64,000 nucleotides of DNA from Exiguobacterium sp. (GTDB lineage: Bacteria > Bacillota > Bacilli > Exiguobacteriales > Exiguobacteriaceae): the NCBI RefSeq assembly GCF_020832205.1, contig NZ_JAFIFD010000013.1:124001-188000 (forward strand), in the 5' to 3' direction. The translations under genes and the position numbers were made by a program. Below, one piece after another: positions 6,755 through 24,906 of this stretch; position 1 is the stretch's first letter; each line of letters starts with the position of its first letter. The notes beneath the pieces were generated by a model. It did not search any database and was not told the DNA's origin. It saw only the letters and a program-made list of their open reading frames with translations.

Positions 6755-8158
6755 TTATAGTGTGATCGATGCCGTCGCGAGTCCGTACACCCCGTATGTC
6801 GCCGCGAGCAAAATCAGCACTGCGATCGCATATTGAAGTCGACTGAGAAACGGCCGCCCTTGCTCCCGCTCGGCTAACATGAACACGAAAATGCCCGGCG
6901 CATATAAAATCATCGCAATGAGCATGTATTCAAGCCCTGAAGCGTACAGCAACCACCCGGCGTAAATCGAAGCGATGCTAGATATGACGAGCATCTTCCA
7001 CGAGCTCACCCGTCTCGCCTCTTTCAATCCAAACAAAGCCGAGAAAAGATACGGGACGAGCGCCGCGATCCCGGCGATGCTCGAGAGGACCAAGTACGTC
7101 TGCTCCGAGAACAAGGCGATGACCGTGACGACTTGCGTGAACGCTTGGGTGACGAACAGCGCGTTCACCGGTGTCTCGTTTTCATTTAAACGATTGAACA
7201 GGCGCGGGAAGACCCCATCCCGGCTCGCCACATAGGAAATCTCCGTCGCCAAAATCGTCCAGCCGAGAAGTGCGCCAGCGAGTGAGACGAGCAGCCCGAT
7301 ATTGATGAGCTTCGCCCCGACCGGTCCAACGACCGCCTCCAACACGTACGCCATCGACGGTTCCGGCAACGCGGCGAGCTGCGCTTGTGTCATGACACCG
7401 AACGAGAAAATCGAAATCATCATATAGATGAGGAGTGTACCGACGAGCCCGATGACCGTCGCTCGTCCGACGTCCCGTTTGTTGCGGGCGCGGGAGGACA
7501 AGACGACCGCCCCTTCGATTCCAACGAACGCCCATAACGTCACGAGCATCGTCGATTTCACTTGCGGGAACACGTGCGACCACTTAAATCCTTCTTCGCC
7601 CCAAAAATCAATTTGGAACGTCTCGATACGAAATGCGAACAAGATGAGGAGTATGAACAAGAAAATCGGCACGAGCTTAGCGATCGTCGTGACGATATTG
7701 AGGAGCGCCGCTTCTTTCATCCCTCGTGAGATCAACCAAAACAATCCCCAGATGAGGAGCGCACTCATGAGCAAACGGAACGTCCGATGCTCGGCCGAGA
7801 AAATCGGAAAGAAGTAACTGAGCGTGCTAAAGATGAGCGTAATATTCGCCACCGTCCCGATCCAAGCCGACATCCAATAGCCCCAACCGCTATTGAAACC
7901 GACGAACGTGCCAAACCCTTCCTTAGCGTACGCATAGATCCCGCCCTCTAGCTCGGGACGGGAGTCCGCCAAATATTGAAACACGAACGCGAGCATGATC
8001 ATGCCGACCCCCGTGATAGCCCAACCGATCAAGACGGAACCGACGCCGGCACCTTGTGCCATCGCTCCCGGTAAATTGAACGCCCCGCCGCCAATCATCG
8101 TCCCGACGACCATCGCTGCAAGACCAAAAAAGCCGATTCCGGCTGTTTGTGACTTCAT
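6755..8158 (-). CDS. arcD: APC-family basic amino acid antiporter, ArcD-like
   Basis: A 467-residue protein with about 12 membrane helices, of the APC superfamily basic amino acid/polyamine antiporter group. The start GLAAMVVGTMIGGGAF contains the substrate-binding glycine-rich kink of helix 1; ELEGGIYAYAKEGFG and WGYWMSAWIG are typical of arginine/ornithine antiporters. The ATG follows CGGAGG. No arcABC genes are nearby, so use in the deiminase pathway is not shown; exchange of arginine, ornithine or lysine is the family expectation. The neighbouring rocD supports an ornithine link. The exact substrate is uncertain. Confidence 0.82.
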   Translation of the reverse strand: MKSQTAGIGFFGLAAMVVGTMIGGGAFNLPGAMAQGAGVGSVLIGWAITGVGMIMLAFVFQYLADSRPELEGGIYAYAKEGFGTFVGFNSGWGYWMSAWIGTVANITLIFSTLSYFFPIFSAEHRTFRLLMSALLIWGLFWLISRGMKEAALLNIVTTIAKLVPIFLFILLILFAFRIETFQIDFWGEEGFKWSHVFPQVKSTMLVTLWAFVGIEGAVVLSSRARNKRDVGRATVIGLVGTLLIYMMISIFSFGVMTQAQLAALPEPSMAYVLEAVVGPVGAKLINIGLLVSLAGALLGWTILATEISYVASRDGVFPRLFNRLNENETPVNALFVTQAFTQVVTVIALFSEQTYLVLSSIAGIAALVPYLFSALFGLKEARRVSSWKMLVISSIASIYAGWLLYASGLEYMLIAMILYAPGIFVFMLAEREQGRPFLSRLQYAIAVLILLAATYGVYGLATASITL

Positions 8159-10198: not shown

Positions 10199-11791
10199 TT
10201 ACGCTTCGCGTTCCGCCCGGATTTCTGCCGGGACACGTCCGCGTTTCGAGATGATTTGTGCGACGAAGAGCAAGACGACGAACGTCGCTGCCGCCGCGAA
10301 GAAACCGATCCACATCGACGTCGTGATGCCGAGTACCAAGTAACCGACCGCTGAGACACCCGCCGCAATCGAAGCGTACGGAAGCTGCGTCAACACGTGA
10401 TCGATGTGGTGCGAACCCGCACCCGTCGAACTGAGGATCGTCGTATCCGAAATCGGTGAACAGTGGTCACCGAAGACGGCACCTGCGAGCACGGCTGCGA
10501 GTGTCGGAAGCAACAGCTCCGGCTCGACCGCCATGATCAAATCTGCTCCAATCGGAAGCATGAGACCGAACGTCCCCCAGCTCGTCCCTGTCGAGAACGC
10601 CATCAGGCCGGCGATCGCGAACAAGATGAGTGGCAAGTAAGACGCCGCAATGCGATCCGTGACGAAGCTTGCCAAGTAATCACCCGTTCTCATGTCACCG
10701 ATGACCGCGATGATCGTCCACGCGAACAACAAGATGAGCACTGCCGGCCACATGGCACGGACACCGGCCCAAGCGGCGCGACCGTAGTCAGCAGACGGGA
10801 TTTTACGTCCGATGAGCAACAAGAACGCCGAGATCAAACTGATGACAGCACCAGCAACGAGTGAACGCGTGACATCTGTCGCCTCAAAGGCACCGAGGAG
10901 CGAGAACGCTTGTCCGTCGGCCGCGAGCGCTAGTCCACCCGTGTACAACATGGCCGAGACAGTAGCGACGATCAATACGATGATCGGAACGATCAAGTCA
11001 CGGACTTTCCCGCCGTCATGCTCTTTAATATCTTCGCTCATTCCCATTGGCGCACCTTTCGACACATCGTACAGCTCGCCTTTAAGGGCGCGAAGCTCAT
11101 GTGTGCGCATCGGTCCGATGGCGAGCCCGGTGAACGCGACATATCCTGTCAACAGAAGCGCGAAGATGGCATAAAAGTTCATCGGGATCATTTGAATGAA
11201 CGCCGACAATGACGAATAGCTGTCAATCGAGTATTTCGCTAAAATACCAGCGATGATGGCGATGATGTAGGCGCCCCAACTCGAGAGCGGGCTGATGACA
11301 CAGACCGGTGCGGCCGTTGAGTCAATCGTATAAGCGAGTTTCGCCCGTGAGACTTTTTTCCGGTCCGTGAGCGGACGGCTGATGTTCCCGACAGCGAGAC
11401 TGTTGAAATAGTCATCAATGAAAATCAAAATCCCAAGTCCGAACGAGACGAGGCGGGCGCCGCGTGCCGTCTTGACGTTTGCTGCTGCCCATTCACCGAA
11501 CGCGCGAGCACCGCCCGACGTTTGAATGATCGATGACAAAATACCGAGTAAGAGCAAGAACGCGATCAACAGGACGTTCCATTCGTTCAATTCACCGTCA
11601 GACCAGAACAAGGCGACGATGTTCGACCATAAGTATGAGATCGAGTCGATCGGGTTGAAGCTGTGCAGGAGCAATACCCCTGCGATAATCCCGACGCCGA
11701 GTGACGGGATGACTTTCCGTGTTGTGATGGCCATAATGATGGCAAGCAATGCCGGTACGAGTGACAGTACCGAAGTTGAATAATCTACCAT
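10199..11791 (-). CDS. lysW: NhaC-family transporter, probable lysine transporter (LysW type)
   Basis: A 530-residue polytopic protein of the NhaC Na+/H+ antiporter superfamily, with repeated glycine-rich membrane segments such as SLGVGIIAGVLLLHSFNP, GDHCSPISDTTILSSTGAG and FIDDYFNSLAVG. The ATG at 11791 follows GAGGAGG; the frame is open for 65 more codons upstream but these are riboswitch leader. Transcription is preceded by a lysine riboswitch with terminator, so the cell switches it off when lysine is plentiful. NhaC-type proteins under this RNA have been predicted to import lysine and named LysW; that function is applied here by regulatory context. A sodium/malate-lactate antiporter role is less likely. 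Confidence 0.82.
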   Translation of the reverse strand: MVDYSTSVLSLVPALLAIIMAITTRKVIPSLGVGIIAGVLLLHSFNPIDSISYLWSNIVALFWSDGELNEWNVLLIAFLLLLGILSSIIQTSGGARAFGEWAAANVKTARGARLVSFGLGILIFIDDYFNSLAVGNISRPLTDRKKVSRAKLAYTIDSTAAPVCVISPLSSWGAYIIAIIAGILAKYSIDSYSSLSAFIQMIPMNFYAIFALLLTGYVAFTGLAIGPMRTHELRALKGELYDVSKGAPMGMSEDIKEHDGGKVRDLIVPIIVLIVATVSAMLYTGGLALAADGQAFSLLGAFEATDVTRSLVAGAVISLISAFLLLIGRKIPSADYGRAAWAGVRAMWPAVLILLFAWTIIAVIGDMRTGDYLASFVTDRIAASYLPLILFAIAGLMAFSTGTSWGTFGLMLPIGADLIMAVEPELLLPTLAAVLAGAVFGDHCSPISDTTILSSTGAGSHHIDHVLTQLPYASIAAGVSAVGYLVLGITTSMWIGFFAAAATFVVLLFVAQIISKRGRVPAEIRAEREA

Positions 11792-11836
11792 GCTGTTTTC
11801 CTCCTCTTCTGTTTGAGATGAGGCCCCCCTATGCTT

Positions 11837-11884
11837 AAAAAAACGCAAAGCGAGGGCATCGGCAACAAAGCCGACACCCTCGCT
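11837..11884 (-). terminator. Riboswitch-controlled terminator of the lysW leader
   Basis: The stem AGCGAGGG.GTCGGC pairs with GCCGA.GCCCTCGCT, then TTTGCGTTTTTTT follows on the minus strand. It lies between the lysine aptamer and the ribosome binding site, as expected for transcriptional attenuation. Confidence 0.85.
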
Positions 11885-11904
11885 GGATGTTCCGTCTTTC
11901 TTAG

Positions 11905-12083
11905 CCGACTTGGAGCGCTCCATACGTAAATATGTATGGCAGTCTGACGGGTATTTCCCGTCAGCCCAGCATAAAGTCAGAGACATGACTTCACACTTCG
12001 GCGATCTTGCCTTTCTGTAGTCTTCACCGTTGTCATCCTCGGACTACTTACTCATCAGCATCGCACCTCTACCTCATCGATAG
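11905..12083 (-). ncRNA. Lysine riboswitch (L-box) upstream of the NhaC transporter
   Basis: Minus-strand RNA with the conserved L-box elements in order: AGAGGTGCGA, AGTA, the segment GATCGCCGAAG, the P4 hairpin CTGACGGG-AAATA-CCCGTCAG, then ACTGCCA and GGAGCGCT closing the junction. It matches the lysine aptamer of Bacillus lysC leaders and is followed by a strong terminator. Ends are approximate because the P1 helix is short and bulged. Confidence 0.92.
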
Positions 12084-12113
12084 CACGAATATTCATTTAA
12101 AAGTTACGTCTAA

Positions 12114-12141
12114 ATTATCATAAGTGACAATGACTTATCAA
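12114..12141 (-). promoter_or_regulatory. Candidate promoter for the riboswitch-lysW transcript
   Basis: TTGATA (12136-12141) and GATAAT (12114-12119) on the minus strand with 16 bases between, overlapping the start of the intergenic gap after the 92-residue gene. The start point would fall shortly before the aptamer. Confidence 0.55.
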
Positions 12142-16741: not shown

Positions 16742-18034
16742 TCAAGACGATTGTCCGACAACTTCGCAAACGACCAAGTCTTCGAGCGTCTGTCTGCGGA
16801 CGACGAGACGATGTGTCCCGTTCTTCACGAAGACAACGGCCGGGCGGAGCATCTGGTTATAGTTGCTCGCCATCGAGAAGTTATACGCACCCGTCGCTTT
16901 GACGAGGAGCAAATCCCCTGCTTCGACCTGCGGGATGAGCGAACGGTTCGAGATGATGTCGCCCGACTCGCAACATGCGCCGACGATTTTCGCCTCGAGC
17001 GTTTTTTCTTCATCCATCCGTGTCGCTGCGATGACGTCGTACTCGGCGTCATAGAGGGCGGGACGGATGTTATCCGTCATTCCGCCGTCGACCGAGACGT
17101 ACGTGCGGACCCCGCTCACTTCTTTCACCGTCCCGACTTCATACAGCGTCGCGCCGGCGTTTGCGACGAGCCAACGGCCCGGCTCAATGCCGATTTTCGG
17201 AAGCGGCAAGCCGAAGCGGTTCACTTCCGCGACGAGCGTGTCCATCACTTGCGTCATCGTGTCGGCAAAGTCGAGCGGGTCGTCCGACTCGAGGTAGGCG
17301 ACACCGAAGCCGCCCCCGATGTTCAAGACGTCGGCCGTGAAGCCCGTCTCTTGACGAATCGTCTCGATGAAGTTGACCATCGTCTTGACCGTGTTGATGA
17401 ACAGCGTCGGTTCTTGAATCTGTGAGCCGACATGACAGTGAATCCCCGTCAAGTTCAACCGCTCCGCTTGAAGCGTCGCGCGGACCGCCTCGAGATACGT
17501 CTCGTCGTGCGTCGGGAAACCAAACTTCGTATCGACCCCACCCGTCTGGATCGCCTCATGGGCACCCCCGACGACTTGCGGGACGATACGGAGAAGGACA
17601 TCGACATCGACGCCGTGTTCGACGGCGAGGCCGGATAAAAGTCCGATTTCACGCATGTTGTCAATCGTGAAATGCGTGATGCCGTTCTCAAGCGCGAACG
17701 TGATATCTTGTACCGTCTTGTTCGATCCGTGGACGTGAATCCGGTCCGCCGGTACCCCGGCGTGCAAGGCGACGAACATCTCCCCGCGCGAGACGACATC
17801 GATGCTGAGACCAGACGCCATGACTTTCTCATAGACGGCCGCGATCGACATCGCTTTTGACGCGTAAAGCGCGTACGTGTTCGGATATTTGTCTAAAAAG
17901 GCGCTTCGGACGAGTCCGAGACGACGCTCAAGCTCAGGCTCGCTCATAATATAGAGCGGTGTCCCATACGTCGCTTGAAGTTCACGGACGGACACGCCCT
18001 CGATCATACAAACTGATTGGTTGGTGGTGTACAT
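16742..18034 (-). CDS. lysA: Diaminopimelate decarboxylase
   Basis: A 430-residue fold-III PLP enzyme that decarboxylates meso-diaminopimelate to L-lysine, the last step of the pathway. The PLP lysine is in ALYASKAM; GIHCHVGSQI, NIGGGFGV, EPGRWLVANAG and CCESGDI are the conserved cofactor and active-site motifs, the cysteine being contributed across the dimer. The ATG follows GAAGGAGG. It is the last gene of the operon and overlaps the upstream alr by 31 bases, so translation is likely coupled. Confidence 0.96.
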   Translation of the reverse strand: MYTTNQSVCMIEGVSVRELQATYGTPLYIMSEPELERRLGLVRSAFLDKYPNTYALYASKAMSIAAVYEKVMASGLSIDVVSRGEMFVALHAGVPADRIHVHGSNKTVQDITFALENGITHFTIDNMREIGLLSGLAVEHGVDVDVLLRIVPQVVGGAHEAIQTGGVDTKFGFPTHDETYLEAVRATLQAERLNLTGIHCHVGSQIQEPTLFINTVKTMVNFIETIRQETGFTADVLNIGGGFGVAYLESDDPLDFADTMTQVMDTLVAEVNRFGLPLPKIGIEPGRWLVANAGATLYEVGTVKEVSGVRTYVSVDGGMTDNIRPALYDAEYDVIAATRMDEEKTLEAKIVGACCESGDIISNRSLIPQVEAGDLLLVKATGAYNFSMASNYNQMLRPAVVFVKNGTHRLVVRRQTLEDLVVCEVVGQSS

Positions 18035-19092
18035 ACATTTCCTCCTTCAAAGCGATGCGGGACACGCCATGAACGTGCGCATAGTTGTTCTGAGTTGTTG
18101 GCGTGACCGGTACGCGTCACGTCATCAATTTTGGTCGTATTGCCATATAGCTCGACCACGTCTCCGACTTGAACAGTCGCATCGACGCGGAGGAAGCTGT
18201 GGCTCATGAAGATGTTGCTGATGAACGGGAACGCTCGACCGTTAATGTGGGCCGGCAAATGCCGACGTGCGCGCATCAACCCATCACCGTAACCGACTGA
18301 CAGTACAGCAATCCGTTCTTTCGCCGCTGCCGTGTAACCGGTGCCGTAACCGACGTGCGCCCCGGCTTCGATGTCGTGCACCGCGATGACTTCGGTCTCC
18401 CAACGAAACGCCGGGACGAGCCAATCGACCGGTTCAACCGACGAATAGCCGTACAAGAAAATCCCGACTCGCACGTGCGTGCAGTGCGCAAGGCGGGGGT
18501 CCGCCTGCAGCGTCGCCGCACTGTTCGCCGCATGCACGACTTCGAACGCATGGCGTTCGATGAGCCGCGTCGACCAGTCGGCAAACCGTTCAACGTGGAT
18601 GCTATGTTCGATTTCAGCGTTATCCGCGTCCGCGAGCGGGAAGTGCGTGCATAAACCGACGAGGTCGAGCCCTTCATCCTGGCAAAACGCGACGATGGCA
18701 AGTGCCTCTTCGAACGTCTTGGCGCCAAAACGGTTCATGCCGACATCTAATTTCAAATGGAGCCGGACCCCATCCAGTTGAGCGCGCTCGGCGACCAACC
18801 AGTCATACGACCCGATGGCGACATCGAGCTTTTGTTCCCGGACATCCTGCCATTCATATACAGGGTTCATGACGAGTACACGGGCGTCCGTCGCATACGT
18901 CCGGACCTCCCTTGCCTCCGCAAGCGTCGTCACCATGAAATGACGCACCCCTTCTTCGTACAGTGTCGTCACAACTGGCTCCATTCCTAGGTTATAGGCG
19001 TTGTTTTTCACGACGGCGAACACCGGTCGGCCGAGCGTCTCGATCCGACGTTTGTTCTCACGAATCGCATTCAAGTCAATTGTGACTCCCAT
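18004..19092 (-). CDS. alr: Alanine racemase-family protein in the lysine operon
   Basis: A 362-residue PLP-dependent amino acid racemase. AVVKNNAYNLG carries the PLP lysine; VHAANSAA, the RVGIFLYGYSS strand and GYGTGY with the opposing catalytic tyrosine are present. It should supply D-alanine (or another D-amino acid) for peptidoglycan. The C-terminus (RVPHRFEGG followed by about a dozen residues) is a little longer than usual and runs into lysA. The gene order matches Staphylococcus, where an alr2 copy sits before lysA; a main alr copy may exist elsewhere. Start ATG after AAAGGAG. Confidence 0.9.
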   Translation of the reverse strand: MGVTIDLNAIRENKRRIETLGRPVFAVVKNNAYNLGMEPVVTTLYEEGVRHFMVTTLAEAREVRTYATDARVLVMNPVYEWQDVREQKLDVAIGSYDWLVAERAQLDGVRLHLKLDVGMNRFGAKTFEEALAIVAFCQDEGLDLVGLCTHFPLADADNAEIEHSIHVERFADWSTRLIERHAFEVVHAANSAATLQADPRLAHCTHVRVGIFLYGYSSVEPVDWLVPAFRWETEVIAVHDIEAGAHVGYGTGYTAAAKERIAVLSVGYGDGLMRARRHLPAHINGRAFPFISNIFMSHSFLRVDATVQVGDVVELYGNTTKIDDVTRTGHANNSEQLCARSWRVPHRFEGGNVCTPPTNQFV

Positions 19093-19104
19093 ACAAAAAC
19101 TCCT

Positions 19105-20031
19105 TTATTCTTTGACTGCTGCTTTGACGAACGTGATCCAATCACGATGGTTTTCGATTTTTCCGGTTACGGCTTCACGGTAACGTGTGAGCATGTTCGT
19201 TGCGACCGTCTGAACCCCACCGCCGATGGAGATGTTGTCGACTTCGATGACACTTGTCACTTCAGCCGCCGTACCCGTCAAGAAGATCTCATCTGCTACA
19301 TATAATTCGTCACGCCCGATATGACGCTCAATCACGTCGAACCCTTCTTCACGAGCGAGTTCGATCACGGTTTGCCGCGTGATGCCATCAAGCACCGAAC
19401 AATCGAGTGACGGTGTGAAGATTTTTTTACCTTTGACGAGGAAGATGTTGGCGACGCTCGCCTCGCTGACGTTTCCGTTCATGTCGAGGGCGATCGCTTC
19501 ATCGTATCCGTCGCGCACCGCTTCGCCTTTAAGCAATTGCGAGTTCATGTAGTTCGCTGCCGCTTTTGCCTGCATCGGCATCATCGTCGAAGAGACGCGG
19601 CGATATGACGCGACTTTCGCCCGGATACCGACCGTTTTGCTGAAATATTCACCAAGCGGCCAACATGAGATGGCGACGTGTACTTTTGTTTCCGCAGTCG
19701 GCATGAGTGCCTGCCAAGGTGTGCCGAGGAAAACGAATGGACGGATGTAACAAGCTTCAAACCCATTGCGTTCAATCAATTCGATTGTCGCTTGCTCGAG
19801 CTCGTCGACCGTGTACGGCAAATCTACGTGATAGTAGGCGCATGAGCGTACGAGGCGCTCCAAATGTTCGCGGAGACGGAAAATGGCCGGGCCTTCCTCT
19901 GTGTGGTATGCCCGGATTCCTTCGAAGAACCCGCTCCCGTAATGAATCGCGTGCGTCATGATGCTCGTGTTCGCATCCGTCGGCTCGATCCAAGCCCCGT
20001 CTTTCCACATCCATTGTCCATACTGTTCCAT
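19105..20031 (-). CDS. ilvE: Branched-chain amino acid aminotransferase (group I)
   Basis: A 308-residue fold-IV PLP aminotransferase. It matches the E. coli-type IlvE group: THAIHYGSGFFEGIRAY near the N-terminus, the PLP lysine in QAKAAANYMNS, DMNGNVSEASVANIF and DGITRQTVIELA. It interconverts Leu/Ile/Val and their 2-oxo acids using glutamate/2-oxoglutarate. It is embedded in the lysine/DAP operon between dapH and alr, the place where Staphylococcus has the deacetylase gene hipO. A side role as aminotransferase in the DAP pathway is conceivable but unproven. RBS GGGAGAG before the ATG. Confidence 0.9.
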   Translation of the reverse strand: MEQYGQWMWKDGAWIEPTDANTSIMTHAIHYGSGFFEGIRAYHTEEGPAIFRLREHLERLVRSCAYYHVDLPYTVDELEQATIELIERNGFEACYIRPFVFLGTPWQALMPTAETKVHVAISCWPLGEYFSKTVGIRAKVASYRRVSSTMMPMQAKAAANYMNSQLLKGEAVRDGYDEAIALDMNGNVSEASVANIFLVKGKKIFTPSLDCSVLDGITRQTVIELAREEGFDVIERHIGRDELYVADEIFLTGTAAEVTSVIEVDNISIGGGVQTVATNMLTRYREAVTGKIENHRDWITFVKAAVKE

Positions 20032-20077
20032 AGTTCAACTCTCCCATTCATTTTTGATATTTTCTGTCTATTATACG

Positions 20078-20785
20078 TTAGAGAGAGCGTAAGTCATCAA
20101 CAAGTTGTGTTTTTTCTGCAGTTTTTTCATCTTTTTGCTTGATGATACGGGCTGGGGTACCAGCGACGACGACACCAGGCGGTACGTCTTGCGTGACGAC
20201 GCTTCCTGCCGCGACGACTGCATTTTCCCCGACACGGACGCCTTCTAAAATGACGGCGTTCGCACCGATCATGACACCGTCTTCGATGATGACCGGATCT
20301 TTTGAAGGTGGCTCAAGGACACCTGCGACAACTGCACCGGCGCCGAGGTGGACGTTTTTCCCGAGTGTGCCGCGGGCGCCGATCACAGCGTTCATGTCGA
20401 CCATCGACCCGTCACCGATGACGGCACCGATGTTGACGACGGCTCCCATCATGACGACGGCGTTGTTCCCGATTTGAACGTGGTCGCGGATGAACGAGCC
20501 CGGTTCGATCCGTGCGTTCAACTTCGTCGTATCGAGCATCGGCACGGCACTGTTGCGACGGTCAAACTCGACGTGTGAGTCCGTGATGACCGCGGCGTTC
20601 GCTTCAAGAAAAGCAGCGGCCCGCTCGGCTGTCGTCAAGAACAGTTTTGATTCGTCCGTTCCGAACGCTTTCGCCTCTTCGATCTCAAGGCCGGCCAATT
20701 GACCGTTGACGTACAATTTGACTGGTGTTTCTTTCTTGGCATCTTTAATGTATTGCGCGATTTCATAAGCGTTTGTGAGTAACAT
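20078..20785 (-). CDS. dapH: Tetrahydrodipicolinate N-acetyltransferase
   Basis: A 235-residue enzyme of the acetylase branch of DAP synthesis; it acetylates tetrahydrodipicolinate with acetyl-CoA. The N-terminal alpha domain is followed by a left-handed beta-helix of hexapeptide repeats (from about residue 90, including [20 protein letters not shown]) and the C-terminal coenzyme A region [26 protein letters not shown]. Length matches DapH/YkuQ of Bacillus, also called dapD. The ATG after GAGGAGG overlaps dapB by 23 bases. Confidence 0.95.
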
Positions 20786-21512
20786 GAGTGGCCTCCTCGT
20801 ATAAGTTCGTTAAATTATATAGTCCGGCCGGGCGGTCGAGAATCGTCGCCGCCGCGGCGAGTGCCCCGTTCGCGAAGACGCGTTTTGACAGGGCGGTGTG
20901 TTTCAGTTCTAGCATCTCGTCATCACCGGCAAAGAGCACGGTATGCTCGCCGAAAATCGTTCCTCCGCGCACGGAGTGCATGCCGAGCTCGTTCGCTTCG
21001 CGCGCTTCGCGTCGCGGCGTCCGGTCGTACACCGGAGTCACGTCACGTTTCGCCTCGATGGCTCGGGCGAGCAGTTCAGCTGTTCCGCTCGGCGCATCGA
21101 CTTTCTTACGGTGATGCGCTTCGATCACTTCGATATCATACCCGAGCGTGAGCGGCACGAGCTGGTCGAGCAATTGTTTCAAAAGGGCGATCCCGTACGA
21201 CGTGTTATACGACTGGAAGATCGGGATCTCGTTTGACGCTTCCTCGATTTTCGCAAGCTCTGCCTCCGAAAAGCCGGTCGTCGCGATGACGAGCGGGATT
21301 CGGTTCGCTTTCCCGTAGGCGAGCACGTCATCTAAGAGCGCCGGATTCGAGAAATCGATGACGACATCGACGTCTGCCTCTACGTCTCGCAGCGACGTCG
21401 GATGGTCCCCTCCCGCCGGCGAGACGATCGCTGCGACGTTCAAGTTTTGTGTGTGGGCGACTTCCTCGACAATTTGTCCCATCGCCCCGTAGCCATGAAT
21501 GAGTAAGTTCAC
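20763..21512 (-). CDS. dapB: 4-hydroxy-tetrahydrodipicolinate reductase
   Basis: A 249-residue NAD(P)H-dependent reductase. The Rossmann start [11 protein letters not shown] and the family signature [15 protein letters not shown], which holds the catalytic histidine and lysine, are intact; the C-terminal [13 protein letters not shown] is also typical. The start codon is GTG, overlapping the dapA stop as GTGA. Slightly shorter than the E. coli enzyme, as usual for Bacilli. Confidence 0.96.
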
Positions 21513-22390
21513 TGTCTCACCTCATTGAATTGCTCCATTGCCGACAAAAGTCGGGCCTCGGCCGTCGCGCTCATCGGGACGAGCGGCAGACGTGGTGCGC
21601 CGAACTCGAATCCGCGTGCGTTTAGCGCCGCTTTGACCGGGATCGGGTTCACTTCAGCGAACAGTTCATCGATGACCGGGAGCAAGCGGATTTGCCACTT
21701 GCGCGCCGTCTCCAAATCCCCGGCGAGCAACGCTTCAGCGAGTGCGACCGTCGCACTCGGATAGACGTTCGACAATACCGAGACGACGCCTTGAGCTCCC
21801 CAAGCCATGTACGGTAAGATTTGATCGTCGTTCCCGCAATAGACCGGGAACCCTTCCGGTAAATGGGCCATCATTTGAGCCATCACCGAGATGTCCCCGC
21901 TCGCCTCTTTCAAAGCTGCGATGCGCGGGTGATCGGCGAGTTCACCGACCGTTGCCGGTTCGAGCGCGACACCGGTGCGTGACGGCACGTTGTAAAGCAT
22001 GAGCGGAATCGGTGACGCGTCGGCAATCGCTGTGAAGTGAGCGATGAGACCGGCTTGTGTCGACTTGTTGTAGTACGGCGTGACGACCATCGCCATCTCG
22101 GCCCCGAGTTCAGCGGCACGCTTCGTCTTTTCGATGCTTAGCGCCGTGTTGTTCGAGCCGGTGCCGGCGATGATGACGGCTCGTCCGGCCGCGATCTCAA
22201 TCGCTTTCGTGAGGAGCGTCTCGAACTCTTCATCGGTGATTGTCATCCCTTCACCGGTCGTCCCTCCGATGACGAGTCCGTTCACCCCTTCTTTAATTTG
22301 ATCTTCAACCAACGCTTCCCATGCGGCAAGGTTTAGCGATCCGTCTTGTTGGAACGGTGTGGCAAGTGCTGTAGCGACTCCTGTGAACAT
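21509..22390 (-). CDS. dapA: 4-hydroxy-tetrahydrodipicolinate synthase
   Basis: A 293-residue class I aldolase condensing pyruvate with aspartate semialdehyde. Conserved elements: TALATPF, GTTGEGMTITDEE, the catalytic tyrosine in YNVPSRTG, the Schiff-base lysine in ALKEASGD, and YCGNDDQ. The ATG at 22390 is preceded by AAGGGGGAAATCAC; twelve upstream in-frame codons lack support. It sits 13 bases after asd. Confidence 0.96.
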   Translation of the reverse strand: MFTGVATALATPFQQDGSLNLAAWEALVEDQIKEGVNGLVIGGTTGEGMTITDEEFETLLTKAIEIAAGRAVIIAGTGSNNTALSIEKTKRAAELGAEMAMVVTPYYNKSTQAGLIAHFTAIADASPIPLMLYNVPSRTGVALEPATVGELADHPRIAALKEASGDISVMAQMMAHLPEGFPVYCGNDDQILPYMAWGAQGVVSVLSNVYPSATVALAEALLAGDLETARKWQIRLLPVIDELFAEVNPIPVKAALNARGFEFGAPRLPLVPMSATAEARLLSAMEQFNEVRQ

Positions 22391-22403
22391 GTGATTTCCC
22401 CCT

Positions 22404-23399
22404 TTATTTTGTAGCGGTCTGTCCAATCATGCATTGTGCGATTTGAACGGCGTTCGCGGCCGCGCCTTTTCTGACGTTGTCGGCGACACACCAGAGATGG
22501 AACGTGTTCGGTTGTGACTCATCGACACGGACACGGCCGATGTACACGTCATCCGTCCCGTTCGCATCGAGCGGCGTCGGGTAGACGAGTTCGCCCGGGT
22601 TGTCCATGAGGACGACGCCTGGCGCGTCACTGAGCACGGCTTTCACTTCAGCGAGTGTCGCCTCGCGGTCGAGCGTCACCGTGATCGAGACGGCGTGGCT
22701 GTTTCGGACCGGGACACGAACACATGTCGCTGTCACGCCAAGGTTTGGGGCGTTCAAAATTTTGCGTGTCTCGTCGATCATCTTCTGTTCTTCTTTCGTA
22801 TAGCCGTTCTCGAGGAACACGTCGATGTGCGGCAACACGTTGTCATAAATCGGATACGGATAGTTTTGCGGTTCTTCGCCGCGGGCCCCGCGCTCCAAAT
22901 CTTCAATCCCTTTTTGTCCTGATCCTGAGACGGCTTGATAAGACGTGTAAGCGACGCGAGTCAATCCGTACACTTCAGCAAGCGGGGCGAGCGCGACGAC
23001 CGATTGGATCGTCGAACAGTTCGGATTGGCGATGAGCGGCTTATCCGGGCTCAGCTCGACCCGGTTCACTTCCGGTACGATGAGCGGGATATCCGCTTGC
23101 ATCCGGAACGCGCTCGAGTTGTCGATGACGATGACGCCTTGTTCGCTCAGGCGCGGCGCATACTGTTCACTGATGCTGCCTCCGGCCGAGAAGAGCGCGA
23201 TGTCGATCGGGTCTGCGTAAATCGCATCGGATAGTTCTCGAATGACGACGTCCTGGCCGTTCACAGTGACCGTCTTTCCGGCTGAACGGGCTGATGCGTA
23301 CAACATCAATTCGTTGATCGGAAACTCATATTCTGTCAACACTTCAATCATCTTTTGGCCGACGGCACCGGTCGCACCGACGACGGCTACGTTATACAT
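22404..23399 (-). CDS. asd: Aspartate-semialdehyde dehydrogenase
   Basis: A 331-residue NADPH enzyme reducing aspartyl phosphate to aspartate semialdehyde, the branch point for lysine, DAP, threonine and methionine. N-terminal VAVVGATGAVGQ binds the cofactor; NPNCSTIQ contains the nucleophilic cysteine; AYTSYQAVSGSGQKG and the late VRVPVRNSHAVS with the substrate-binding arginine and histidine are present. RBS AAGGAGG. Second gene of the operon. Confidence 0.96.
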   Translation of the reverse strand: MYNVAVVGATGAVGQKMIEVLTEYEFPINELMLYASARSAGKTVTVNGQDVVIRELSDAIYADPIDIALFSAGGSISEQYAPRLSEQGVIVIDNSSAFRMQADIPLIVPEVNRVELSPDKPLIANPNCSTIQSVVALAPLAEVYGLTRVAYTSYQAVSGSGQKGIEDLERGARGEEPQNYPYPIYDNVLPHIDVFLENGYTKEEQKMIDETRKILNAPNLGVTATCVRVPVRNSHAVSITVTLDREATLAEVKAVLSDAPGVVLMDNPGELVYPTPLDANGTDDVYIGRVRVDESQPNTFHLWCVADNVRKGAAANAVQIAQCMIGQTATK

Positions 23400-23411
23400 G
23401 TGGCGTCCTCC

Positions 23412-24611
23412 TTATAACTTGAAGCGTGTCGCGATTGCCGCGACGGCTGCTTCGACGTCTTGTTCGTTGATCGTGTACGAGATACTGATTTCAGATGTCG
23501 TGACTTGGTAGAACGGGATGCCGCTCTCACGGAACGTCGCGAACAGTTCAGACGCGACACCGGTCGCATCACGCATCCCGATGCCGACGACCGAGATTTT
23601 CGCATGCTCGGTATGGCGATCGATTTTGATTTGCGGGAACGTCTCCGTCAATTCGGCGAGCGCTTCTTCAAGGAACGCTTCCTCGTCAAGCGGACACGTG
23701 AACGACAAGAACACTTCACCGTCAAACGCCGTTTGACTGATCATATCGATATTGACGTGACGCTGTGACAACTTCTCGAAAATATCGGCCACACCTGCCA
23801 CCGAATGCGGAATATGTTTGATTGAAACGCTGAGCACGTTCTTCACGACGCTCACGCTCGTCACCGCTTTTTGTTCCATTGCCTGTGTCATATCCATGAT
23901 CCAAGTTCCTCCTTCGCTCGCAAGCGTCTTTCCTACAAAAATGTTCACGTCATATTTTTTCGCGAGTTCCACGCTGCGCATCTCCATCACTTTCGAACCG
24001 AGCGCGCTCATCTCCATCATCTCGTCGTACGACACCGTCTCTAAGCGGCGCGCTGTCGGGTGAATCCGCGGGTCGGCCGTGTACACACCGGCGACGTCCG
24101 TATAAATCTCGCACCGTTTGCTGAGGACGGCCGCCAAAGCGACGGCTGTCGTATCCGATCCGCCGCGGCCGAGCGTCGTCACGTCGCCGAACTCGTTGAC
24201 ACCTTGGAAACCGGCGACGATGACGACGTCATACGTGCGCAGCTTCTCTTCCAATACTTCTTTTCGAATCGCCTTAATTTTACTTTTCGTATGAATCCCC
24301 ATCGTGTCGATCCCGGCTTGTTGTCCGGTGAGCGAAATGGCGGCGACGCCCCGTGAGTTCAAGGCGATGCTGAGCAGGCTGATCGTCTGTTCTTCCCCGA
24401 CGGCGAGCAAGCGGTCGAGTTCTCGAATCATCGGTCGTTCCGTAATTTGTTTAGCTAGCGACAAGAGCGAGTCGGTCGTCTTTCCCATCGCGGAGACGAC
24501 GACGACGAGCTTTTCGCCCGCCTCGGCCCGCGTTTGTAAATATTCAGAAATTGCCTGTATTTGTTCGATTGTGGCAACGGAGCTGCCTCCAAATTTCAAT
24601 ACGGTTGTCAT
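23412..24611 (-). CDS. lysC: Aspartate kinase
   Basis: A 399-residue monofunctional aspartokinase that phosphorylates aspartate, the committing step. KFGGSSVA at the N-terminus, TTLGRGGSDTTAVALA for substrate binding, and two ACT domains in the last 150 residues (VSIKHIPHSVAGVADIFEKL and HAKISVVGIGM regions), which usually confer feedback inhibition. The ATG at 24611 begins MTTVLKFGG after GTGGGGAACTTG. The open frame continues 90 codons upstream, but that sequence is the lysine riboswitch and its terminator, so it is not coding. First gene of lysC-asd-dapA-dapB-dapH-ilvE-alr-lysA. Confidence 0.95.
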   Translation of the reverse strand: MTTVLKFGGSSVATIEQIQAISEYLQTRAEAGEKLVVVVSAMGKTTDSLLSLAKQITERPMIRELDRLLAVGEEQTISLLSIALNSRGVAAISLTGQQAGIDTMGIHTKSKIKAIRKEVLEEKLRTYDVVIVAGFQGVNEFGDVTTLGRGGSDTTAVALAAVLSKRCEIYTDVAGVYTADPRIHPTARRLETVSYDEMMEMSALGSKVMEMRSVELAKKYDVNIFVGKTLASEGGTWIMDMTQAMEQKAVTSVSVVKNVLSVSIKHIPHSVAGVADIFEKLSQRHVNIDMISQTAFDGEVFLSFTCPLDEEAFLEEALAELTETFPQIKIDRHTEHAKISVVGIGMRDATGVASELFATFRESGIPFYQVTTSEISISYTINEQDVEAAVAAIATRFKL

Positions 24612-24643
24612 CAAGTTCCCCACTTTCATGATGTCCACCAACA

Positions 24644-24692: not shown

Positions 24693-24726
24693 GTACGCGC
24701 AGTTGAAAAACGATTGAAAAATCGTT

Positions 24727-24906
24727 CCGTAGATAGCGCTCCATGGCATTTCATCCATGGCAGTGTAGGCGTTATTCACGACTACCCCAGCCTTCGTTCG
24801 TACGCACGCGAACGTCGACTTCGGCGAATTTCCCCTTTCGGCCCGATCCGGAATGCGTCCGTTTCGATCAAGCGTACTCATGTCATTCGCAACCTCTATC
24901 TGTCAG
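24727..24906 (-). ncRNA. Lysine riboswitch (L-box) upstream of lysC
   Basis: The minus-strand leader has AGATAGAGGTTGCGA, AGTACG, GGGCCGAAAGGGG, ATTCGCCGAAG, GCTGGGG, CACTGCCATGG and GGAGCGCTATCT. The P1 helix is AGATAG/CTATCT. This is the Bacillus-type lysine aptamer with the junction sequences intact. Lysine binding should favour the terminator that follows and shut down the whole lysC operon. Confidence 0.95.

Follow-up and report, generated by a model that had tools for sequence, protein, structure and literature searches.

In the 64,000-nucleotide stretch of Exiguobacterium DNA that was analysed (the window), the gene at 10199 to 11791 on the (-) strand very probably encodes LysW, a secondary transporter from the NhaC branch of the ion-transporter superfamily that imports lysine. 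The carrier would be cation-coupled and of the elevator type, would be turned off by lysine through transcription termination, and has a candidate substrate site at D126, N130 and S170. The Na+/H+ antiporter label that the gene attracts is in our reading a mislabelling, and its most likely role is lysine import. The lysine-transporter reading of an L-box-controlled lysW is already published, for Exiguobacterium too. According to the available parts of PMC5584792 and PMC545781, LysW behind an L-box is a candidate lysine transporter of the NhaC superfamily in Firmicutes and gammaproteobacteria, and in E. chiriqhucha N139 the LYS riboswitch of one NhaC protein and the SAM riboswitch of a second led to their annotation as lysine transporter and methionine transporter, respectively (PMC5399880, available text). 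What the present analysis adds is a test of the association by clade, the exchange of LysP and LysW between genera, the anatomy of the antiterminator, the signature residues and the predicted fold.

The lysW gene and its leader

The initial annotation had placed a full L-box with a terminator ahead of a gene that automated annotation would call a Na+/H+ antiporter, in the interval 10199-12141. The L-box, the terminator and the gene are all real, but the interval spans the leader plus the gene, the open reading frame itself running from 11791 to 10199. The features referred to below are the following:

10199–11791 (-): lysW, encoding a 530-aa NhaC-superfamily transporter, predicted lysine importer (PF03553; L-box clade; AlphaFold2)
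11800–11806 (-): ribosome binding site GAGGAGG, read from the sequence
11836–11884 (-): intrinsic terminator hairpin with U tract, found by scan, exclusive with the antiterminator, -30.3 kcal/mol
11858–11909 (-): predicted antiterminator hairpin, -22.1 kcal/mol, with its 5' foot GUCGG overlapping the aptamer 3' end (P1 side)
11905–12079 (-): lysine riboswitch aptamer (L-box) of lysW, RF00168, 122 bits
12114–12141 (-): promoter-like TTGATA-16-GATAAT upstream of the lysW leader, from a consensus scan
16742–24629 (-): lysine synthesis cluster, NCBIfam models over cut-off for all eight genes
24726–24906 (-): lysine riboswitch aptamer of the lysC operon, RF00168, 99.3 bits

The lysW product matches PF03553, whose Pfam name is indeed Na_H_antiporter, with 264.7 bits, which places it in the NhaC superfamily (COG1757/PF03553); with TIGR00931, the model of NhaC proper, it scores 43.6 bits, far below the equivalog cut-off of 370. 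Its closest relative in Exiguobacterium is 96% identical. The best start is the ATG at 11791 behind GAGGAGG, giving 530 aa, and the GGAGG of this ribosome binding site is conserved in an alignment of 19 leaders. A 595-aa frame opening at 11986 was also considered; it is a mechanical extension into the leader and is not the preferred start. In the neighbourhood, a basic amino acid/polyamine antiporter of the arginine-ornithine type (6755-8158, (-) strand; TIGR00905, 531.6 bits) is found without an L-box.

The covariance-model score that had been suggested as a check for 11905-12083 bears the aptamer out: RF00168 matched 11905-12079 (-), complete over model positions 1-182, with 122 bits and an E of 4e-32, where the gathering score is 30; a terminator of 15 pairs with a T-rich tail follows, as had been claimed. 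A scan of the whole 2.78-Mb genome returned exactly two L-boxes, one in the lysW leader and one before the lysC operon, the latter also complete (model 1-182) and above the gathering score. The earlier statement that two L-boxes in the window tie synthesis to transport was supported, the second standing at the head of a cluster with the order lysC-asd-dapA-dapB-dapH-aminotransferase (branched-chain-type)-alr-lysA. Each of the 19 genomes of the genus carries exactly two L-boxes, one of them always before lysW; the GATAAT of the promoter-like element is kept in 18 of the 19 species.

The expression platform

Between the aptamer 3' end and the U tract (11831-11925 on the (-) strand) a run of about 95 alignment columns is invariant across all 19 species, so that the expression platform is more conserved than the aptamer, whose helices vary among the same species. 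The sister genus has almost the same block, with a 3-base deletion. The terminator hairpin (11884-11849 (-), 15 pairs before the T-rich tail) is predicted at -30.3 kcal/mol in the window and at about -24.6 to -24.9 kcal/mol in the sister genus, and the antiterminator at -22.1 and -20.1 kcal/mol, respectively. The terminator also shows a compensatory change in the sister genus, where a G-C pair has become A-U in seven of nine species and G-U in the other two. For 28 of 28 species in the family, the leader is predicted to form a terminator and an antiterminator that exclude each other; this count shows the presence of the block and no independent discovery, since the search pattern was derived from the conserved block itself.

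The antiterminator is built from the spacer, the 5' strand of the terminator and the terminator loop, which means that nearly every base is needed twice, and this exclusive pairing explains why the platform, even including the terminator loop, is so conserved. An alternative explanation by a leader peptide was tried, because the lysW frame is open through the leader (ORFs of 595-614 aa, the peptide starting MERSKSAKKD with three lysines). It was rejected, as most changes between the two genera alter residues and hairpin pairing accounts for the conservation.

Since the 5' foot of the antiterminator consists of the last aptamer bases, a P1 closed by lysine should favour termination, and the anatomy of the leader thus suggests an OFF switch. 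When lysine is scarce, the nascent leader would form the antiterminator (11909-11858) and RNA polymerase would read into lysW; when lysine is bound, the closed P1 would take the antiterminator foot, and the terminator (11884-11849 plus the U tract) would keep lysW off. With the lysC operon under its own L-box, synthesis and uptake would be expected to fall together.

L-box distribution among NhaC-type proteins

NhaC-type matches were ranked in 299 genomes of the class, and 100 loci in Bacilli were scanned with Rfam. An L-box was found at 46 of 55 scanned loci of the LysW clade and at three of five in a second small NhaC clade, in which L105 has none and L108 cannot be judged, having only 215 bases upstream before the contig end. 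The other NhaC branches (groups B and D, the far group and the single rows L104 and L135) gave none at 40 scanned loci. The L-box thus tracks one protein clade and a second small one, which supports the proposal of the initial annotation that the substrate is lysine.

The clades were defined on a 180-row FastTree. There the LysW clade has support 100 and comprises 131 rows, 105 of them with an L-box and 26 without. For contig-derived rows the labels were assigned by a sequence pattern, and by Rfam where it was run; the pattern recovered 63 of 65 Rfam positives with zero false positives in 120 loci. That the 26 L-box-free LysW rows nevertheless keep the signature residues described below counts against the lysine reading. 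The L-box label requires 19 changes on the 180-row tree, showing that losses or gains are frequent, and nearly every LysW subclade contains L-box members.

Outside Bacilli, 24 gammaproteobacterial LysW loci were found, of which 20 were scanned and 16 had an L-box; the four scanned loci without one belong to Psychromonas (three) and Onishia (one). The Psychromonas proteins L163, L164, L165 and L176 lack the L-box (three by Rfam, L176 by the pattern only) and keep the signature residues. Two further LysW, L063 and L064, 56% identical, come from genomes (G072 and G086) without any L-box at E <= 0.001. In a 49-row mixture-model tree LysW of the Exiguobacterium family groups with that of marine gammaproteobacteria (SH-aLRT 100), inside Bacilli, and the larger 180-row tree shows the same grouping (rows L039, L047, L053 and L060 against L153-L197). 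This points to a transfer of LysW between phyla, in either direction.

L107, L110 and L111, the members of the second small clade with L-boxes, are about 35% identical and carry D126, N130 and S170; this clade is possibly a second lineage of lysine carriers. The genome of the window (G000) also holds another NhaC-superfamily gene, L007 (contig C18:91233-92474), behind a SAM riboswitch (79.9 bits), which parallels the report on E. chiriqhucha N139 and would be expected if the superfamily carries amino acids.

Exchange of LysP and LysW between sister genera

Thirteen genomes of the sister genus were sampled; the nine with lysW have three L-boxes and the four without it have two. Inspection of eight of these genomes placed one L-box before lysC and one before a LysP-like permease in all eight, and the third, where present (four of four), precedes lysW. 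The one permease that was scored reached 770 bits with NF008094 (PRK10836), which we take to be the LysP model, against a cut-off of 735, and the remaining permeases were recognised by their near-identical N-terminal sequence. In the window's genus no LysP orthologue was found in any of the 19 genomes, the best match having 41-42% identity, which makes lysW its only L-box transporter. Where a genus lacks LysP, LysW thus stands behind an L-box in all genomes, and where a genus has an L-box LysP, LysW can be omitted, hinting that both import lysine. This exchange is the strongest pointer to lysine besides the riboswitch, and it again favours the substrate proposed initially. LysP is described as lysine-specific (PMC12764776, available text).

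Predicted fold and candidate substrate residues

The AlphaFold2 model of the lysW product has a mean pLDDT of 89.6 and a pTM of 0.88. Its closest fold is the MleN integrative model (VIA-align Z 25.0, 3.6 A, 410 residues), and NaS1, LaINDY and NaDC3 follow with Z of about 20-22 over about 410 residues. A search of the P0001 sequence against solved structures gave no match at E <= 10. Four conserved stretches, IFIDDYFN, SPLSSWG, TGTSWG and GDHCSPISDT, sit at helix breaks according to sequence and DSSP, which would match the pair of hairpins and the pair of broken helices in INDY. LysW would then be a cation-coupled carrier of the elevator type, in which the two re-entrant hairpins and the two broken helices probably form the substrate site.

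Within the LysW clade D126 and S170 are present in 131 of 131 rows and N130 in 126, and in the second L-box clade each of the three is found in five of five. Group B has S, T and I in their place and group D has S, S and T; of the three, the far group retains D126 alone, and that in 6 of 30. Two deep rows that have no L-box, L104 and L135, carry D126 and N130, with S170 as well in L104, which means that genes outside the L-box set can show the signature too. A residue scan gave six columns common to the L-box clades, compared with three and two in control scans, which is a modest excess. The foremost candidates for recognising lysine are D126, N130 and S170, and their sharing by both L-box clades, together with their difference in groups B, D and far, is a further argument for lysine as the substrate. 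The window gene offers testable residues (D126, N130, S170) as well as a testable switch.

Substrate and direction of transport

The analysis shows the L-box, the terminator, the conservation, the association with a clade and the predicted fold, and from there we infer the OFF polarity, lysine as the substrate, import as the direction and a cation as the coupling ion; an uptake assay of LysW was not found in the literature searched. The gene could instead encode a true Na+/H+ antiporter, one that serves pH or sodium homeostasis and is turned off when lysine is plentiful because lysine decarboxylation then consumes protons. Such a function agrees with the Pfam name Na_H_antiporter and is listed as an alternative in PMC11477304 and repeated in PMC5584792 (available parts of both). 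Genes of the decarboxylase type that it would need are also present: an argument against it from the absence of lysine decarboxylase failed, as PF01276 genes of the ornithine/lysine/arginine-decarboxylase type occur in 19 of 19 genomes. We consider it unlikely all the same, given the 43.6 bits with TIGR00931 against 370, the exchange of LysP and LysW behind L-boxes in the sister genus, the residues that L-box carriers have in common but that groups B, D and far, which have no L-box, lack, and a predicted fold whose matches include, besides the MleN antiporter model, carriers of anions both organic and inorganic.

Slightly less probable still is another cationic substrate, such as diaminopimelate, ornithine, arginine or cadaverine, or an exchange of lysine for one of these. 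An arginine-ornithine-type antiporter does lie nearby at 6755-8158, and the available text of PMC545781 links lysW to lysine through regulation only; against this, an L-box occurs in nearly every subclade, which fits lysine itself best, and the apparent substitute LysP is described as lysine-specific (PMC12764776, available text). As to direction, which sequence cannot reveal, export of lysine by LysW is very improbable, since a terminator formed with lysine bound would close an exporter exactly when it is required, and the antiterminator foot on P1 follows the logic of an OFF switch. Lysine import by LysW is retained as the preferred reading.

Tet(35) of vibrios

The NCBIfam model that the window protein matches best is Tet(35) (NF000013), aligned from residue 163 with 409 bits, which falls short of the cut-off of 750. 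This NCBI model corresponds to the final two thirds of Vibrio LysW, and tet(35) itself is catalogued as ubiquitous in Vibrio. Four Vibrio LysW score 597-671 bits with the same model over the same stretch. A match of at least 430 bits is present in 97 of 99 Vibrio genomes, and 14 reach the NCBI cut-off; of the two others, G322 shows no more than a trace and G361 no match. The matches lie nearly all within open frames of about 520-600 aa, those in G347, G366 and G404 being shorter or split. Of the 97 genes with at least 430 bits, 95 have an L-box upstream in the same orientation, at a median of 606 bases before the first model position (range 568-794), including all 14 genes over the NCBI cut-off; six of six second copies have one as well. 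None was found upstream of the two remaining genes, which belong to G336 and to G334 (a genome record of 1.0 Mb).

Position 163 is a methionine in all 30 Vibrio loci that were fetched (L235-L264), and all 30 keep D126, D127, N130, S170 and S171. Residues 1-162 are 89% conserved among vibrios, compared with 87% for the rest, and 53% identical to the window protein. Because Met163 is constant and the N-terminal part is equally conserved, the start of the reference Tet(35) appears to be internal and the gene to be lysW. It is in our judgement highly likely that tet(35) is the L-box-controlled lysine importer lysW read from the internal Met163, and that it is uninformative on tetracycline resistance. 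Teo et al. are said to have originally reported tet(35) in 2002 as an efflux determinant; the present reading does not contradict that report, as an indirect effect on tetracycline is conceivable for a fragment in multicopy.

In resistance surveys, tet(35) of vibrios is scored as a determinant of tetracycline resistance (PMC11921324 and PMC7520990, available parts). In the first of these, tet35-carrying vibrios from sea otters were susceptible, a discord called unexplained in the available text, and in the second all 116 Norwegian isolates were susceptible to tetracycline, with tet35 in all V. alginolyticus genomes examined. Identity with lysW would explain such tet35-positive, susceptible vibrios, and should tet(35) be lysW annotated from an internal start, the tet(35) counts of resistance surveys would be false positives. 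Tet(35)-like genes on plasmids gave 63 records, each less than 60% identical to Vibrio LysW, and none of the matches listed (30 of the 63 records) was an annotated tet(35). A limited open-access text search did not find tet35 linked to lysine or a riboswitch; its one co-mention was in unrelated passages.

Comparison with known systems

With NhaC of alkaliphilic Bacillus (TIGR00931) the lysW product has the superfamily in common, but at 43.6 bits it lies far under the cut-off of 370. MleN and the INDY/DASS carriers have a fold akin to the LysW prediction at 7-13% sequence identity, a likeness of fold that shows no substrate. Tet(35) (NF000013), the Vibrio tetracycline efflux protein, is represented by a 369-position model that aligns to LysW from residue 163 on and is without the first 162 residues, which hold D126 and N130 and half of the predicted site. 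With the published LysW (COG1757) the window gene shares both the superfamily and the L-box control, and between these two we see no essential difference.
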